From positions 1 through 46,307 of the forward strand of contig JASJCU010000025.1 in NCBI GenBank assembly GCA_030065815.1: 46,307 nucleotides of DNA. Reading direction: 5' to 3'. The position numbers and the translations under genes were made by a program. The stretch comes from Gammaproteobacteria bacterium (GTDB lineage Bacteria; Pseudomonadota; Gammaproteobacteria; Chromatiales; Chromatiaceae). Shown piece by piece: positions 11,706-43,463 of this stretch; within the stretch, counting starts at the first letter, position 1, and every line of letters starts with the position of its first letter. Below the pieces are notes generated by a model, which saw only the letters and a list, made by a program, of their open reading frames with translations, was not told the origin of the DNA and did not search any database.

Positions 11706-11955
11706 CTAGCCTGCATAGTGCATGAGCTGCGTAGAGCCTGCGGCCTTCGCAGCCGGCGTGGAGCGGGGGTCATAGCCGTCGCCATGGCTTGGGTGACGGC
11801 CAAGCCACAGCGAGCGAGCAAACGCAGGAATCCGAATGCGACGACACCGGGCACAGACGACGATTTCCGGACTTGCAGAAAAACTGACGGAGACCACGTT
11901 CGTATCCGATGCCTGTAGAGTCGGCGTCGTTCGGCTCATGCAGCAGGCAGGCTAG
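11706..11955. mobile_element. MITE-like element, copy 1 (250 bp)
   Basis: Terminal inverted repeats CTAGCCTGCATAGTGCATG at 11706 and the reverse complement of CTAGCCTGCCTGCTGCATG at 11955 match at 19 of 22 outer positions. The interior shares blocks with the element at 43142-43399: GCCTGCGGC-ttcgcagcc, GCCATGGCTTG with GGCCAAGCCAC (a hairpin), and GTCGTTCGGCTCATGCA. No transposase is encoded. A minus-strand frame runs from an ATG in one terminal repeat (11939) to a TAG in the other (11706) and encodes 77 residues starting MSRTTPTLQASD. It sits at the boundary where the yebC-nudB pair is broken and ends 25 bp before the next gene. Confidence 0.82.
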
Positions 11956-37098: not shown

Positions 37099-40000
37099 TC
37101 AATGAAAATCACGCGACTCGACGTTCAACCCGTCGAGCAGGTCGCTGTGATCCTCGAGGCGGCGACAGAGCAGGTGCTGCACGCCCTCGGAACGCTGGAT
37201 CTCGGCGACCACGCCGAGCAGCTGCGCGCCGAGCAACACGCGGCGCTGGCGCTCGGCCAGGTCGGCCCAGATCAGCAGGTTAAGGCCGCCGTACTCGTCC
37301 TCGAGCGTGACGAAGATCGCGCGGCCGTTGCCGGGGCGCTGGCGGATCAGCACGATGCCGGCCGCGCGCACGATCTCGCCCGGCGCGCGTGCGGCGACCT
37401 CGGCCGACGACAGCAGCTCGCGCTCGCGCAGGCGCGCACGGATCAGCGCCAGCGGGTGTTCGTGCAGGGTCAGGCCGAGCTGCGCATAGTCGGCCAGCAC
37501 AGTCTGCCCCGCTGTCGGCGCCCGCAGGCGCGGCCGCCGCTCGCTGAAGCGGTCGAGGCGGGCCAGCGCCGGCGCCTCCTCGACCCCGGCGACATCCCAG
37601 GCCGCGAGGTGGCGATGACCGGCCAGCTCGCGCAAGGCATCGGCCGCGGCCAGCGCCTTGAGGTCGGCACGGTTGAGCTGTGCACGGCATGCCAGGTCCT
37701 GCACCGTTGAAAATCCGCCTGCACCACGTACCGTGGCGATTCGTGATGCTGCGGACTCAGACAGGCCCCGAATCATGCACAGACCAAGGCGCATGGCAGG
37801 CGGATTTTCAGGGCCGAGGGCCGAGGGCCGAGGGCCGAGGGGTGCACTGAACTGCGCTCCACGCTCCCCGGCCCGCGGCCCCTGGCCCGCGGCCCGCCCC
37901 CCTCTGCCCTTTGCCCTCTGCCCTCCGCCCTTCTTTGCCCTCTGCCCTCCGCCCTCCAAGGTGCAATCCCAGTCGCTGTGATTGACATCGGCCGGGCGCA
38001 CCGCGACGCCGTGCTCGCGCGCATCGCGCACCAGCTGTGCCGGCGCGTAGAAGCCCATCGGCTGGCTGTTGATCAGCGCCGCGCAGAATGCCGCCGGGTG
38101 GTAATGCTTGAGCCAGGCCGAGACGTAGACCAGCAGTGCGAAGCTGGCGGAATGCGACTCGGGAAAACCGTAATCGCCGAAACCGAGGATCTGCCGGTAG
38201 ACCCGCTCGGCGAACTCGCGCTGGTAGCCGCGCGCCTGCATGCCGTCCATCAGCTTCTTCTCGTACGGCTCGAGCCCGCCGCGCCGCTTCCACGCGGCCA
38301 TCGCACGCCGCAGCTGGTCGGCCTCGCCGGGCGTGAACCCGGCCGCGACCATCGCCAGCTTGATCACCTGCTCCTGGAAGATCGGCACGCCGAGCGTGCG
38401 TTCGAGCACGCCGCGCACCTCCTCCGACGGGTAGTCGACTGCCTCCTTGCCCTGCCGCCGGCGCAGGTAGGGGTGCACCATGTCGCCCTGGATCGGTCCC
38501 GGTCGCACGATCGCGACCTCGATCACGAGGTCGTAGAAACACTCGGGCCGCAGGCGCGGCAGCATCGACATCTGCGCGCGCGACTCGATCTGGAACACGC
38601 CGATCGTGTCGGCCTGCTGGATCATCGCGTAGACCTCGGGATCTTCGGGCGGGATGTTCGCAAGCGTTAACGCTTGCTCAGGGCCGAGGGCCAAGGGCCG
38701 AGGGCCGAGGTATCCATTTCCTTTGCCCTGCGCCCTCCGCCCTCTGCCCTGGAAGCCATTGACGAGCGCCAGCGCCCGCCGTATCGCCGACAACATGCCG
38801 AGCGCCAACACGTCGACCTTGAGCAATCCCAAGGCTTCCAGATCGTCCTTCTCCCACTGGATCACGGTGCGCTCGGGCATCGACGCGTTCTCGATCGGCA
38901 CCAGCTCGTCGAGACGGCCGGCGGCGATCACGAAGCCACCGACATGCTGCGACAGGTGGCGCGGGAAACCGCGCAGCGTGTTGACCAGCACGCGCAGGCG
39001 CCGCAGGGTCGGGTTGTGCGGATCGAAACCGGCCTCGGCGAGGTGCTGCGGCGTGATCTCGCGGTAGCGGCGCCAGGCCGCGACCGCGGCGACCAGCGCC
39101 TCGATCTGTTCCAGGCCCAAGCCCAACGCCTTACCGACGTCGCGCACCGCGCTGCGCGTGCGGTAGGTGATCACGGTCGCGGCCAGCGCGGCGCGCTCGC
39201 GACCGTACTTGCGGTAGACGTACTGGATCACCTCCTCGCGCCGCTGGTGCTCGAAGTCGACGTCGATGTCCGGCGGCTCGTTGCGCTCGCGCGAGATGAA
39301 GCGCTCGAACAGCAGGTTCATGCGCGACGGGTCGACCTCGGTGATGCCGAGGCAATAGCACACCGCCGAGTTGGCCGCCGAGCCGCGCCCCTGGCACAGG
39401 ATGTCGCGCTCGCGGGCGAAGCGGACCATGTCCCAGACGGTCAGGAAATAGGCCGCGTAGTCGAGCTCGGCGATCAGCGCCAGCTCGTGCTCGACCTGTG
39501 CCCGCACCTTGTCCGGGCAGCCGTCCGGCCAGCGCCGCGCCATGCCCTGCGCGGTCAGCCGGCGCAGCCAGGCCTGCGGCGTCAGGCCGGCCGGCGTGAC
39601 GTCGTCCGGGTACTGGTAGCGCAGCTCGTCGAGCGAGAAGCTGCAGCGTCGTGCGACGCGCACGCTCTCGGCGAGCAGCGCCGCCGGGTACAGGGCCGCC
39701 AGGTCGTCGCGCGGACGCAGGTGGCGCTCGCCGTTCGACAGCCGCGCATGGCCGAGCTCGGCGACCGGCGTGTTCAAGCGGATCGCGCTCAGCAGGTCCT
39801 GCAGCGCACGTCGGCCGCGCACGTGCATGTGCACGTCGCCGGTGGCCACGCAGCGCAGACCGGTACGCGCCGCCAGGCGTCCGGCACGTTGCAGGCAGGC
39901 AGCGTCGCGCCCGTCGCGCAGCAGTTCGACCGCCAGCCAGGCACGCCCGGCGAAGTGTGCGGCCAGCCAGTCGGCATCCGCGGCGTCACCGTCGGGACCG

Positions 40001-40812
40001 ACCGGCAGCAGTACCAGGCAGTCCGCGAGTGCACCCTCCAGGTCGCGCCGCTGCAGCCGGTAGCTGCCTTTGTCGGCATGCCGCCGGGCATGCGTGATCA
40101 GCCGGCACAGCTGGCCGTAACCGGCCCGGTTGGCCGCCAGCAGCACCAGGCGCGGGCCGTCGTCCAGGCACACCTCGCTGCCGACGATCAGCGCCAGGCC
40201 GATCGCCTTGGCCTTCTGGTGCGCACGCACGACACCCGAGACCGAGCACTCGTCGGTGATCGCCAGCGCCGCGTAGCCGAGCGCGTGCGCGCGCTCGACC
40301 AGTTCCTCCGGGTGCGACGCGCCGCGCAGGAAGGTGTAGTTACTCAGGCAGTGCAGCTCGGCGTAGGCCGAGCTGCGCGGGCCGCGAGCCAGGGGCCGGG
40401 GGCCGGGATCAGGGCCGAGGGCCGAGGGCCGAGGGACGAGGGGGTGCGTAGTCTGCTCGCCGACGGTGGTTGGCGATGGCGCCGGTGGATGTTTCTTTTG
40501 CGACGCGGAGGGCGCAGAGAAGCACAGAGAGCGCAGAGTTTCTGATGGCCGTTTGCAAAGGTTTTCTCTGCGACCTCTGCGCTTCTCTGCGCACTCTGCG
40601 TCCCCCTGGTACGGACCGCGGGCCGCGGGCCGCGGGCCGGGATCAGGGACGAGGGCCGAGGGCCGAGGGACGAGGGGGTGCGTAGTCTGCTCGCCGACGG
40701 TGGCTGACGGAGACGACATCCCTGCAGGCCTGCTGGCCCGCGGCCCGTGGCCCCCGGCCCGGCACCCTCTGCCCTCTGCCCTCTGCCCTCGACCCCTAAA
40801 CGAACAGTCCAT
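37099..40812 (-). CDS. dnaE2: DnaE2/ImuC, error-prone polymerase III alpha subunit, with repeat-encoded insertions
   Basis: The frame is 1237 residues. The DnaE2 core begins AYAELHCLSNYTFLRGASHP at about residue 149 (40368) with a PHP domain. Polymerase acidic motifs are PPDIDVDFEHQRREE (about 515) and KVDVLALGMLSAIRRAL (about 666). The C-terminal OB fold holds RAAGIVLIRQRPGNG. Two repeat-derived peptides interrupt the core: about residues 687-712, after the third catalytic Asp, and about 951-1001, before AMRLGLCMIRGLSE. No ATG, GTG or TTG start lies next to the core, so I use the ATG at 40812, overlapping the imuB stop by 17 bp; that adds about 147 repeat-encoded residues. Frame stays open throughout. 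Confidence 0.85.
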   Translation of the reverse strand: MDCSFRGRGQRAEGRGCRAGGHGPRASRPAGMSSPSATVGEQTTHPLVPRPSALVPDPGPRPAARGPYQGDAECAEKRRGRRENLCKRPSETLRSLCFSAPSASQKKHPPAPSPTTVGEQTTHPLVPRPSALGPDPGPRPLARGPRSSAYAELHCLSNYTFLRGASHPEELVERAHALGYAALAITDECSVSGVVRAHQKAKAIGLALIVGSEVCLDDGPRLVLLAANRAGYGQLCRLITHARRHADKGSYRLQRRDLEGALADCLVLLPVGPDGDAADADWLAAHFAGRAWLAVELLRDGRDAACLQRAGRLAARTGLRCVATGDVHMHVRGRRALQDLLSAIRLNTPVAELGHARLSNGERHLRPRDDLAALYPAALLAESVRVARRCSFSLDELRYQYPDDVTPAGLTPQAWLRRLTAQGMARRWPDGCPDKVRAQVEHELALIAELDYAAYFLTVWDMVRFARERDILCQGRGSAANSAVCYCLGITEVDPSRMNLLFERFISRERNEPPDIDVDFEHQRREEVIQYVYRKYGRERAALAATVITYRTRSAVRDVGKALGLGLEQIEALVAAVAAWRRYREITPQHLAEAGFDPHNPTLRRLRVLVNTLRGFPRHLSQHVGGFVIAAGRLDELVPIENASMPERTVIQWEKDDLEALGLLKVDVLALGMLSAIRRALALVNGFQGRGRRAQGKGNGYLGPRPLALGPEQALTLANIPPEDPEVYAMIQQADTIGVFQIESRAQMSMLPRLRPECFYDLVIEVAIVRPGPIQGDMVHPYLRRRQGKEAVDYPSEEVRGVLERTLGVPIFQEQVIKLAMVAAGFTPGEADQLRRAMAAWKRRGGLEPYEKKLMDGMQARGYQREFAERVYRQILGFGDYGFPESHSASFALLVYVSAWLKHYHPAAFCAALINSQPMGFYAPAQLVRDAREHGVAVRPADVNHSDWDCTLEGGGQRAKKGGGQRAKGRGGRAAGQGPRAGERGAQFSAPLGPRPSALGPENPPAMRLGLCMIRGLSESAASRIATVRGAGGFSTVQDLACRAQLNRADLKALAAADALRELAGHRHLAAWDVAGVEEAPALARLDRFSERRPRLRAPTAGQTVLADYAQLGLTLHEHPLALIRARLRERELLSSAEVAARAPGEIVRAAGIVLIRQRPGNGRAIFVTLEDEYGGLNLLIWADLAERQRRVLLGAQLLGVVAEIQRSEGVQHLLCRRLEDHSDLLDGLNVESRDFH
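37811..37961. repeat. Heptamer element HE1 inside dnaE2
   Basis: The left arm (37811-37841) is tandem GGGCCGA units. A middle part has GGCCCGCGGCCC-type sequence, and the right arm (about 37901-37961) has CTGCCCT-like units. Read as protein it encodes about 50 residues of the GQRAKGR / LGPRPSA type inside DnaE2. Its left edge abuts the arm GCAGGCGGATTTTCA (37796-37810), a perfect inverted copy of TGAAAATCCGCCTGC at 37708-37722. Confidence 0.85.
38660..38677. repeat. Perfect 18-bp palindrome abutting HE2
   Basis: GCAAGCGTTAACGCTTGC, within dnaE2 coding for A-L-T-L-A. It lies 3 bp from the left edge of the heptamer element HE2. TTA is a rare Leu codon in this GC-rich window, consistent with one half being a new inverted copy of the other. 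Confidence 0.85.
38681..38752. repeat. Heptamer element HE2 inside dnaE2 (compact)
   Basis: About 72 bp: left arm of four GGGCCGA-like units, a short AT-richer centre (TATCCATTTCCTTT) and right arm of CTGCCCT-like units. It encodes about 25 residues in frame between ALALVNGFQ and ALTLANIPPEDP of DnaE2, a position where homologues have only a short loop. This is the shortest complete copy and best defines the unit. Confidence 0.85.
40353..40376. repeat. Perfect stem-loop at the dnaE2 core start
   Basis: Arms GCAGCTCGGC and GCCGAGCTGC with loop GTAG. On the minus strand one arm is the native dnaE2 codons for A-E-L and part of H; the other encodes R-S-S-A where the ancestral start codon is expected. 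It marks the left edge of composite element HE3. Confidence 0.82.
40377..40795. repeat. Composite heptamer element HE3 at the imuB-dnaE2 junction
   Basis: It contains two AGGGCCG arms lying in a 72-bp direct repeat (40401-40472 and 40635-40706, 70 of 72 identical, spacing 234 bp), a nested CTCTGCG inverted pair (40499-40543 and 40558-40603), GGCCGCGGGCC-type tracts and a terminal CTGCCCT arm (40761-40795). It lies between the imuB stop and the dnaE2 core and has no in-frame stop in the dnaE2 frame. Confidence 0.82.
40499..40603. repeat. CTCTGCG inverted element nested in HE3
   Basis: The left arm GGCGCAGAGAAGCACAGAGA and right arm TCTCTGCGACCTCTGCGC are imperfect reverse complements separated by about 15 bp. 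It belongs to the same family as the element between tolR and tolQ, 37 kb away. Confidence 0.78.
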
Positions 40813-42238
40813 GCAGATACCACCCGCCACCGCGGCGGTCACGGAACACCCACAGCCGCTCGCCGGCCGGGCTGTGGGCGATGAAGTAGTCACGGGTGAT
40901 GTCGCCGCCGTCCCACCAGCCGGCCTCGATGCGCTCCGGCAGGTTCTCCAGGCGCAGTGCCCCGCCGTAGTCCGGCACGCCGCCGCAATCGCGCAGCGGG
41001 CGCGGGCTGGCCAGCAGCCACGGCGGCTGCGACAGACCCTGGCGGTGCGCACCGTCGGGCAGCGCGTCGCCGTCGCCCGGCCGGCACAGCTGCCAGGCAC
41101 GCTCGGGGCGGTGATCGGGCAGGCAGCGCAGGCCGCGCACCCGCTGCTCGCCAAGGCGGTTGCTGAGGCGTTCGAGCAGCGCGTGGTCGCGCGGTCCGGG
41201 ATTGTCGTCGAGCAGCGCCAGGCTGTGCTCGGCGAAGGCCTGCCAGTCGTCGACGCGCAGGCCGATCGCGACGACCGGCGCCGGCAATACCAGGCGCTCG
41301 ATACGCTCGCGGAACACCTCGAGCATATGATCGGCATCGCGGCTCGGGTCGAGCAGGCCCTGGTCGAACGCCGTCGGCGGTCGGCCGTCGCGGTGCTGCA
41401 GCGTCCACTGCAGGCGCTGCGCGCCGCCGCCGAGGCCGCGCAGGAAACCGCACAGCGCGACCATCAAACGGCGCGCCGGGAACACCAGCGCCGTGCTCTG
41501 GCCGATCTCGCCGAGCAGCTCGACGGTCTGTGCGAAGTGCCGCGGCGGTGACCACTCGTCACGCGGGTCCGCGGCATGGCCGAGCAGGCGATCGAGCAGC
41601 GCCGGCAGCGCCGGGCCGCTGCGCCGCGCCAGCTCGACACGCGGCAGCCCGAGCACGTCGCCGATGGTGTGCAGGCCGACATGCCGGACCAGCTCGCGCA
41701 CCGCGCGTTCGCGGGTCAGGCTGGCCAGTGGTAGCGGCGCGACCGCGCTGCGCAGCGCCTGTGCATCGCTCACCTCGCAGCCCGGACGGCTGCGCGCCAG
41801 CAGGCCGGCCGCGGTCGGCGTCGGCGCCAGCGCATGCCGGGCGCTGTAGCCGACCTGCTGCAGCTCGTGTTGCACGCGCTGCAGCAGCCCCGGCAGGCCC
41901 CCGAACAGGCGCCGGCTGGCGCCGACCTCGAGCAGCAACAGCGATGGCTCGAACGCGATCCGCGCGCTGAACTGGTAGGCCCAGGCCGCCAGCTCGTCGA
42001 GTGCCTGCCGCTCACGCCCGGGGTCACGGCGCTGCACGACCAGGTCGGCACACAGCGTCAGCGCCGCCGGCAGCGCCAGGCCCGGCCGTACACCGTAGGC
42101 CTGCGCCGCGCTGTTGCAGCGGCTGACCTGCTCACGCCCGGCCTGTGATTCGACGACCACCAGCGCGCCGGCCTGCTGGCGGACACGCGTGAACACCTCG
42201 AGCGGCAGCTGCGGGAAATACAGGGCGAGCCAGAGCAT
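40796..42238 (-). CDS. imuB: ImuB, catalytically inactive Y-family polymerase homologue
   Basis: The product is 480 residues. It begins MLWLALYFPQLPLEVFTRVR, in which the catalytic acidic residue of active Y-family polymerases is missing. The palm and finger segments follow (AGALVVVESQAGREQVSRCN, then SLLLLEVGASRRLFGGLPG), with the thumb HhH and little-finger regions and a C-terminal extension ending WYLHGLFV, typical of ImuB. ImuB is the hub that connects the beta clamp, ImuA and DnaE2 in damage-induced mutagenesis. The start codon overlaps a perfect 20-bp palindrome. Confidence 0.93.
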   Translation of the reverse strand: MLWLALYFPQLPLEVFTRVRQQAGALVVVESQAGREQVSRCNSAAQAYGVRPGLALPAALTLCADLVVQRRDPGRERQALDELAAWAYQFSARIAFEPSLLLLEVGASRRLFGGLPGLLQRVQHELQQVGYSARHALAPTPTAAGLLARSRPGCEVSDAQALRSAVAPLPLASLTRERAVRELVRHVGLHTIGDVLGLPRVELARRSGPALPALLDRLLGHAADPRDEWSPPRHFAQTVELLGEIGQSTALVFPARRLMVALCGFLRGLGGGAQRLQWTLQHRDGRPPTAFDQGLLDPSRDADHMLEVFRERIERLVLPAPVVAIGLRVDDWQAFAEHSLALLDDNPGPRDHALLERLSNRLGEQRVRGLRCLPDHRPERAWQLCRPGDGDALPDGAHRQGLSQPPWLLASPRPLRDCGGVPDYGGALRLENLPERIEAGWWDGGDITRDYFIAHSPAGERLWVFRDRRGGGWYLHGLFV

Positions 42239-42257
42239 GCCGGGTCATGACCCGGCA
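42238..42257. repeat. Perfect 20-bp palindrome at the imuB start
   Basis: TGCCGGGTCATGACCCGGCA. It overlaps the first base of the imuB ATG and abuts the left arm of heptamer element HE4. A hairpin here would cover the ribosome-binding region of imuB. Confidence 0.85.
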
Positions 42258-42505
42258 GGGCCGAGGGCCGAGGGCCGAGGGCCGAGGGTGTGGCCCAGCG
42301 GGCCGCGGGCCATGGGTCGCGGGTCAACGTAGCAGGCGACCGCTAAGCCTTCACCCCTTGCAGACCGGCAAATGCCGTACGCCCGTCGAGAAACAGCCAT
42401 CCGGACCCGACACTCACCGCCACCGCTACGCATCGGCCCCGCCCTCGCTCCTCGCTCCCCGATCCTCGGCCCTCCGCCCTCTGCCCTCGGCCCTCAACCC
42501 TGTGC
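42258..42505. repeat. Heptamer element HE4 spanning the imuA-imuB junction
   Basis: The left arm (42258-42295) is GGGCCGA units, followed by GGGCCGCGGGCCATGGG. About 130 bp of unrelated sequence containing the imuA stop comes next, then the right arm (about 42462-42505) with CGGCCCT/CTGCCCT units. It replaces the close imuA-imuB junction by a 187-bp gap and supplies the ImuA C-terminal residues. No other gene lies in the gap. Confidence 0.8.
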
Positions 42506-43127
42506 CGACAGGCACGATGCACGACCCACCCGCCCAGCCACCGCGCCGCTTCAGCACCTCGACCTCGAGCCCCAGCGGCGCCGGGCGCACGCGCAGGCGC
42601 AGCGCGGCCGACGAGCCCTGGCCGGCGGTACGCAGCGGGCGGAACAACAGCGCGCTGCAGTCGCCCTGCTCGGCGGCCAGCTGCAGGCGGCGCAGCTGGG
42701 CGGTCTGTGGGCCTTTGCCGCCGGCCTCGCCCGGCCACGCCAGCAGCAGGCTGCTGGCACCGGACTTGAGCACCTGCTCGGCCGCCCACAGCGCCTGCTC
42801 GTCGGACACCTCGCGGATCAGCAGCAGCCGCCCGACGCGCACGCCGCGCGCGGCCAGTGCCGGGGCATAGGGCACGTGCGGCGGCGCGACCCAGGTGATC
42901 CAGCGCGCCTCGGCACTGAGCCGCGCGATCAATGGCAGCAGCAACGACAGGCCCTGGTGGGAATCGCTGAGCAGCTCGCTGAGCGCCGCGCGCGGCCAGC
43001 CGCCGGCGAGCAGCTCGTCGAGCACCGGCCAACCGCTGGACAGCACCCGTCCGGCCGGCACCACGGCACGCCGTCCCTGCCAGAGGTCGCCGTTGCGTTT
43101 CAGATCGTCGAGACTGATTACCTGCAT
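42426..43127 (-). CDS. imuA: ImuA, mutasome accessory protein, with repeat-encoded tail
   Basis: The product is 233 residues. The RecA/SulA-like family pattern is visible: RVLSSGWPVLDELLAGGWPR, ALSELLSDSHQGLSLLLPLI and the closing LEVEVLKRRGGWAGGSCIVP. After that point the sequence becomes GLRAEGRGRRAEDRGARSEG, encoded by the right arm of heptamer element HE4, so the C-terminus has been replaced or extended. ImuA binds ImuB and RecA in related systems. The upstream 14 bp before MITE copy 2 contain only a weak ribosome site, AGG, partly supplied by the element end. Confidence 0.9.
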   Translation of the reverse strand: MQVISLDDLKRNGDLWQGRRAVVPAGRVLSSGWPVLDELLAGGWPRAALSELLSDSHQGLSLLLPLIARLSAEARWITWVAPPHVPYAPALAARGVRVGRLLLIREVSDEQALWAAEQVLKSGASSLLLAWPGEAGGKGPQTAQLRRLQLAAEQGDCSALLFRPLRTAGQGSSAALRLRVRPAPLGLEVEVLKRRGGWAGGSCIVPVGTGLRAEGRGRRAEDRGARSEGGADA

Positions 43128-43141
43128 CGCCGCGCATACCT

Positions 43142-43399
43142 AGCCTGCATGTTGCATGGGCACCCGGAGGGCCTGCGGCTTTCGCAGCCGTGGTGGCGCC
43201 GGCGTGGGGTTAAAGGCACAGCCGTGGCCATGGCTTGAGTGAAGGCCAAGCCACGGCGGGCGAGAAACCGCAGGGATCCGAACAGGACAGCGCCGGACAC
43301 CGACCGCATTTTCCGGATGTTCACGAAGATTGATAAAAATCACTTTCATATCAGATGCTTGCAGGGTCGGCGTTGTTCGGCTCATGCAACATGCAGGCT
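43142..43399. mobile_element. MITE-like element, copy 2 (258 bp)
   Basis: Perfect 17-bp terminal inverted repeats AGCCTGCATGTTGCATG (43142-43158 and 43383-43399). The interior shares several blocks with copy 1 at 11706-11955, including GCCTGCGGCTTTCGCAGCC and a GCCATGGCTTG / GGCCAAGCCAC hairpin. No transposase. As in copy 1 a minus-strand frame starts in one terminal repeat (ATG, 43385) and ends in the other (TAG, 43140): 81 residues beginning MSRTTPTLQASD. The element lies between imuA and its likely operator. Confidence 0.85.
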
Positions 43400-43445
43400 G
43401 GCCCCGCCCGGCCGGACCGGGCAGCGGCGATTCACCAGGGATGGA

Positions 43446-43463
43446 GAACAAATATAGAACAAA
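43446..43463 (-). promoter_or_regulatory. Candidate LexA-type operator of imuABC
   Basis: GAACAAATATAGAACAAA: a perfect direct repeat GAACAAA separated by TATA. On the minus strand it contains GTTC-N7-GTTC, the form of LexA box known from alphaproteobacteria. It is the most AT-rich spot in the area and lies 319 bp from the imuA start, of which 258 bp is MITE copy 2. imuABC operons are normally LexA-controlled. The repressor's identity in this organism is not known. Confidence 0.55.

Follow-up and report, generated by a model that had tools for sequence, protein, structure and literature searches.

Correia/NEMIS, ERIC and IS630-derived elements are TA-duplicating MITEs of bacteria and are often transcribed into neighbouring mRNAs. 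The imuA-imuB-dnaE2 cassette for SOS mutagenesis is described as persistently regulated by LexA (PMC3323433). Most beta- and gammaproteobacteria would be expected to use the LexA box CTGT-N8-ACAG (PMC3323433), while the alphaproteobacterial box, found in Caulobacter crescentus and others, is the direct repeat GTTC-N7-GTTC (PMC9578287, PMC3323433, PMC8565304). Dual-LexA systems of Pseudomonas putida and Xanthomonas are cited in PMC9578287, and a proposal cited in PMC8565304 holds that, once the primary LexA has been lost, the SOS network is taken back by a diverged duplicate. The locus analyzed here lies in a stretch of 46,307 nucleotides (the window; contig JASJCU010000025.1) from a gammaproteobacterium of the family Chromatiaceae. 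It resembles the known mutagenesis cassette in gene order and in the LexA-type site upstream, but differs in that a 256-bp mobile element separates the operator from the genes.

The element in the imuA leader and the empty site in congeners

A non-autonomous, TA-targeting, MITE-like element is inserted between the operator/promoter and the ribosome-binding site of imuA, 15 bp upstream of this gene (Table 1). Its ends, GCCTGCATGTTGCATG, are perfect inverted repeats (16/16 bp). On the imuA side the element is flanked by TA and on the operator side by TG, one transition from TA, which means that one of the two copies of the target duplication has decayed. The element is short and carries no transposase gene, and 42 matches to it were detected in its own genome (E<=0.001), the full-length ones being approximately 67-80% identical to the imuA-leader copy. 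A genome-wide search with the end sequence yielded 41 matches with <=2 mismatches and none for the reversed control. Most copies are flanked by CT and AG, which points to TA duplications within CTAG. A MITE-like element between imuA and its likely operator had been claimed in a sequence-only reading of this DNA, and the inverted ends, the matches and the empty site described below verified this claim; the size of 258 bp given there holds if one TA is counted. A partner transposase of the IS630 type was rejected, as no match to DDE_3 (PF13358) was obtained in the 98.9% complete genome, and the element was not assigned to the IS630/Tc1-type MITEs. An IHF site was likewise rejected as a feature of the element since it occurs in a single copy only. 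The imuA-leader copy shows 83% identity to the family consensus and 79% to its nearest copy; the age of the insertion judged from this divergence is ambiguous, and the perfect ends suggest that the copy may represent a diverged subfamily. A second copy in the window (11708-11953) is 74% identical to it. Related elements that share a core and possess their own end sequences are present in five congeners (G001, G002, G003, G006 and G007). The inner core common to the congener elements (L153-L157, L161-L175) spans approximately positions 30-155, and the genome-specific ends look as though the two ends had changed together in each lineage.

In all eight other genomes of the genus the element is absent, and GTTCTATATTKGTTC is found 45-63 bp upstream of imuA. 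Removal of 258 bp (the element and one TA) from the window leader yields a sequence that aligns to the eight congener leaders without a gap where the flanks meet. Over GGGCGGGGCCAGGTATG, the joined sequence matches G008 letter for letter, and G001 reads CTAGG at the junction place. The joined flanks thus reproduce the congener leaders as predicted for an insertion, which also speaks against an assembly error. The operator, approximately 320 bp from the imuA ATG in the window, is brought to approximately 62 bp by this removal and therefore to the normal promoter distance that had been anticipated. Ahead of the ribosome site, most congeners have a short stem, GYCC..GGGC (window 43405-43425 and the corresponding congener positions), and G003 may contain a compensating change.

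The genes imuA, imuB and dnaE2 are all open and follow each other in this order. The true start of dnaE2/imuC lies downstream of the first ATG of the ORF, after imuB. The SulA-like Pfam call on the imuA product is the usual one for ImuA, and imuA orthologues were detected in 8/8 congeners (67-75% identity). In-frame low-complexity repeats of the GPRPSALGPRP type occur at several places in the dnaE2 ORF and at the ImuA C-terminus (window 37099-42500), and the end of the G002 imuA contains similar repeat text.

Table 1. Coordinates of the cassette, the element and the operator; positions refer to the window except for lexA.
Feature	Position	Strand	Remarks
dnaE2/imuC ORF	37099..41337	-	DNA polymerase III alpha, PHP and finger domains
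imuB	40796..42238	-	480 aa; IMS family
imuA	42426..43127	-	233 aa; first cassette gene; ATG at 43127; Pfam SulA/ImuA-like
Remainder of native imuA leader	43128..43142	-	AGG before start; includes imuA-side TA (43141-43142); congener alignment
MITE-like element	43143..43398	.	256 bp; multi-copy family; missing at same place in congeners
Terminal inverted repeat, imuA side	43143..43158	+	GCCTGCATGTTGCATG
Terminal inverted repeat, operator side	43383..43398	-	perfect match to imuA-side end
Decayed TA target duplication	43399..43400	.	reads TG
LexA-type operator	43446..43460	-	GTTCTATATTTGTTC; conserved; 24.8 bits; predicted from sequence
Likely -10 hexamer	43451..43456	-	TATATT, inside operator; putative
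lexA of this genome	L061 1081-1701

Initiation control and the structured leader

We consider it likely that the element resides in a leader whose SOS-controlled initiation has been kept, and that the longer, folded leader probably lowers or delays ImuA translation. The operator overlaps the likely -10 hexamer and, judging from homology and the common motif, LexA would repress by blocking RNA polymerase, a repression that RecA-stimulated self-cleavage of LexA would lift upon DNA damage. Both the operator and the -10 hexamer are located upstream of the element and are unchanged compared with relatives, from which we infer that initiation control is intact; damage-dependent initiation should stay as it was before the insertion. 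Since LexA would block the polymerase upstream of the element, the spacing between operator and gene would be irrelevant to repression.

Leader lengths and folding were calculated under the assumption of a transcription start near 43449. The leader then measures approximately 322 nt with the element and approximately 64 nt without it, compared to 49-67 nt in the congeners that were folded. The prediction of about 260 additional structured bases was supported, as approximately 258 bases are gained and the leader with the element folds more stably than its shuffled versions (z = -4.8). No known RNA family was found in this leader. A conserved RNA structure of the element was rejected, as the element is foldable but the covariation term is unfavourable (+1.43). 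The AGG before the imuA start was kept and the bases upstream of it are now element-derived, so the ribosome-binding region abuts the element end, in line with the earlier proposal that this end partly forms the ribosome site. Opening of the region from -18 to +12 is predicted to cost 23.1 kcal/mol with the element versus 13.7 kcal/mol without it and 11.4-18.9 kcal/mol in the congeners, which makes the element leader the costliest of all leaders folded, in calculations that take neither co-transcriptional folding nor ribosomes into account. Pairing of the element ends and the core would produce a hairpin extending to approximately 15 nt before the start codon, and this hairpin would probably reduce or delay ImuA translation per transcript while the SOS link is kept. 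The post-transcriptional effect of the longer leader and the harder-to-open ribosome site is thus a prediction from folding. No in-frame start is present between the element-edge TAG and the imuA ATG. A minus-strand ORF (window 43118-43324) starts with a GTG inside the element and ends with a TAA just inside imuA; translation begun there could couple to imuA, or the ORF may be due to chance in GC-rich DNA, and no good ribosome site was seen for its GTG.

The sequence-only reading had further suggested that the insertion altered or rewired the SOS control of mutagenesis. This part did not hold, given the position and preservation of the operator and the -10 hexamer, the failure to find a convincing promoter in the element and the rate of imuA evolution, which is not raised over that of relatives. 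The locus is better read as having a leader that has become longer and structured and in which the ribosome site is probably dampened. Partial rewiring of SOS mutagenesis would follow if an outward promoter in the element provided imuA with a LexA-independent supply. A weak element-internal pair directed toward imuA, TTATCA-17-GAAAAT, does match 8/12 positions and equals the best pair of the native promoter. However, none of the promoter-like pairs in the element reaches 9/12, and the AT-rich stretch is peculiar to the imuA-leader copy and departs from the family consensus more than any other part of it, which makes this explanation unlikely.

The high opening cost of the ribosome site could also be taken to mean that, by concealing this site, the insertion has largely shut off the cassette, a possibility to which we assign a low probability. 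All three cassette genes are open, and a comparison with relatives revealed no relaxed selection on imuA: unique ImuA changes relative to G002 number 15 vs 12 and 17 vs 17, hence not faster than in G002, and dN/dS is 0.2-0.4. With no excess of changes over G002, the cassette is unlikely to be dead, except in the case of a very recent insertion. The selection argument fails to reach such a very recent insertion, and the intact genes and operator may only reflect recent insertion.

The operator and the LexA proteins of the family

The exact core GAAC-N7-GAAC is located at 43446-43460 (plus strand). The operator is conserved at 19-21 of 21 positions in comparison with each congener, while identity in the 40 bp upstream of it does not exceed about half of the positions. 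The lexA and recA promoters used to build a matrix all came from other species, with no imuA promoter included and nothing taken from this genome. This matrix assigned 24.8 bits to the imuA site and 11.8 bits to the next best place in the window; the maxima of simulated windows (n=60) were 10.4 +/- 2.1, the largest being 16.1. The significance of the imuA site follows from its conservation in eight congeners and from this independently trained matrix, and the claim of a LexA-type operator behind the element was thereby substantiated. The direct repeat is a LexA-type operator by sequence, to which LexA is expected to bind.

The same site had been proposed as something to look for at lexA and recA of this genome, and it was found at both. 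As a third argument for the imuA site, a search of the 3.89 Mb genome for the strict pattern GTTCTNNNNNKGTTYT gave six occurrences (reversed control, one): at recA, lexA and imuA, before a 55-codon ORF, and within the coding regions of leuS and coaBC, two genes that we take to be such from their translations. The recA box GTTCTCTTTTTGTTTT, whose second half is GTTT in this genus, is invariant in this genome and in the seven congeners for which the full recA promoter was read, and the congener lexA promoters contain two facing boxes. The direct repeat GTTC-N7-GTTC at lexA, recA and imuA is the operator sequence of the alphaproteobacterial type. CTG-N10-CAG (the canonical CTGT-N8-ACAG box) is absent from these three promoters in this genome and, near the start, also in the congeners, with one distant chance match at the G006 imuA. 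This box class is unexpected in a gammaproteobacterial host, a point that the earlier reading did not contain. The strong GTTC-type box before the 55-codon ORF (G000 contig C160:6595-6610; L215 around 1500) precedes a gene for a small one-helix membrane protein (MPHTRYVMRDL...WVDLAVFVAVVLVYVGALALTA), which could be SOS-induced, for example as a division inhibitor.

One LexA above the family cut-off was detected in this genome. It contains the DNA-binding (PF01726) and S24 peptidase (PF00717) domains and can be aligned with E. coli LexA through the Ala-Gly cleavage region as well as the regions of the catalytic Ser and Lys, so that RecA-stimulated self-cleavage would be expected. Its recognition helix is SSRGSLHKQIQAL, unlike the RSxNAAEEHLxAL of canonical gammaproteobacterial LexA. 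In a LexA tree of gammaproteobacterial genomes only, the family holds two clades that differ in recognition helices and operators (L113-L134, L182-L210, L077-L091). The canonical lexA genes of the family adjoin imuA and mostly have CTGTATATAATTACAG-like boxes (CTG-N10-CAG), whereas in most genomes with the other clade GTTC-N7-GTTC is found at the lexA of this clade and at recA. A GTTC box is present at the recA promoter in 8/11 genomes with the GTTC-type LexA clade and in 1/9 without it (p = 0.009, an optimistic value because the genomes are related). Both LexA proteins are present in G010 and G019, and in G010 the CTG box is located at lexA-imuA and the GTTC box at recA and the second lexA. 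In the genus of the window, the GTTC-type LexA is the only one found and imuA has a GTTC box; this LexA seems to have acquired the mutagenesis cassette there.

These data also bear on the idea that the direct repeat at imuA is a chance or unrelated motif and not a LexA operator. It is not the CTGT-N8-ACAG box of most beta- and gammaproteobacteria (PMC3323433), and as a stand-alone motif the bare GAAC-N7-GAAC was rejected for being near chance (two in the window against 1.2 expected; 87 in the genome). Its presence in the lexA promoter itself as well as at recA and imuA, its tracking of the LexA clade across the family and the CTG-N10-CAG boxes of most canonical lexA genes in the same family nevertheless make a coincidence very improbable. 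Although the element occurs in multiple copies in a fragmented draft assembly of 172 contigs, a repeat misjoined into the imuA leader is scarcely credible, as this copy is at most approximately 80% identical to any other and can be placed by short reads, and both flanks continue one conserved leader.

Comparison with described systems

The nine species constitute a clean natural experiment on one shared SOS-mutagenesis promoter, which in one of them is separated from the gene by a structured insert of 256 bp, and a comparison among them would allow a direct measurement of how far the leader contributes to mutagenesis output. Family members with the CTG type, with both types and with the GTTC type only give the appearance of a stage-by-stage replacement of the LexA operator, which bears on the proposed duplicate-LexA takeover cited in PMC8565304. 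A wider history is conceivable but doubtful: a second LexA with an alpha-type operator would have coexisted with the canonical one, replaced it in this genus and captured imuA-imuB-dnaE2, with a mobile-element leader now setting the mutagenesis per SOS signal. In the open-access papers searched, neither a gammaproteobacterial LexA with a GTTC direct repeat nor a MITE located in an SOS leader is described.

With Correia/NEMIS, ERIC and IS630-derived MITEs, the imuA-leader element has in common that it is short and non-coding with inverted ends and TA flanks. It differs from them by its own end sequence and core and by the lack of a conserved IHF site and of a DDE_3 transposase in the genome. 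The operator shares with the alphaproteobacterial LexA box the half site, its spacing and the direct orientation of the repeat, as well as the location at lexA, recA and imuA, but it occurs in a gammaproteobacterium, and the canonical CTG-N10-CAG LexA is also present in the family of this host; this likeness concerns the operator, the LexA proteins having been compared among gammaproteobacterial genomes only. As in the dual-LexA systems of Pseudomonas putida and Xanthomonas, two LexA proteins with separate operators occur in one lineage. In contrast to those systems, the second LexA here appears to use an alpha-type direct repeat and to control recA, and in this genus, where it is the only LexA found, it would also control imuABC.
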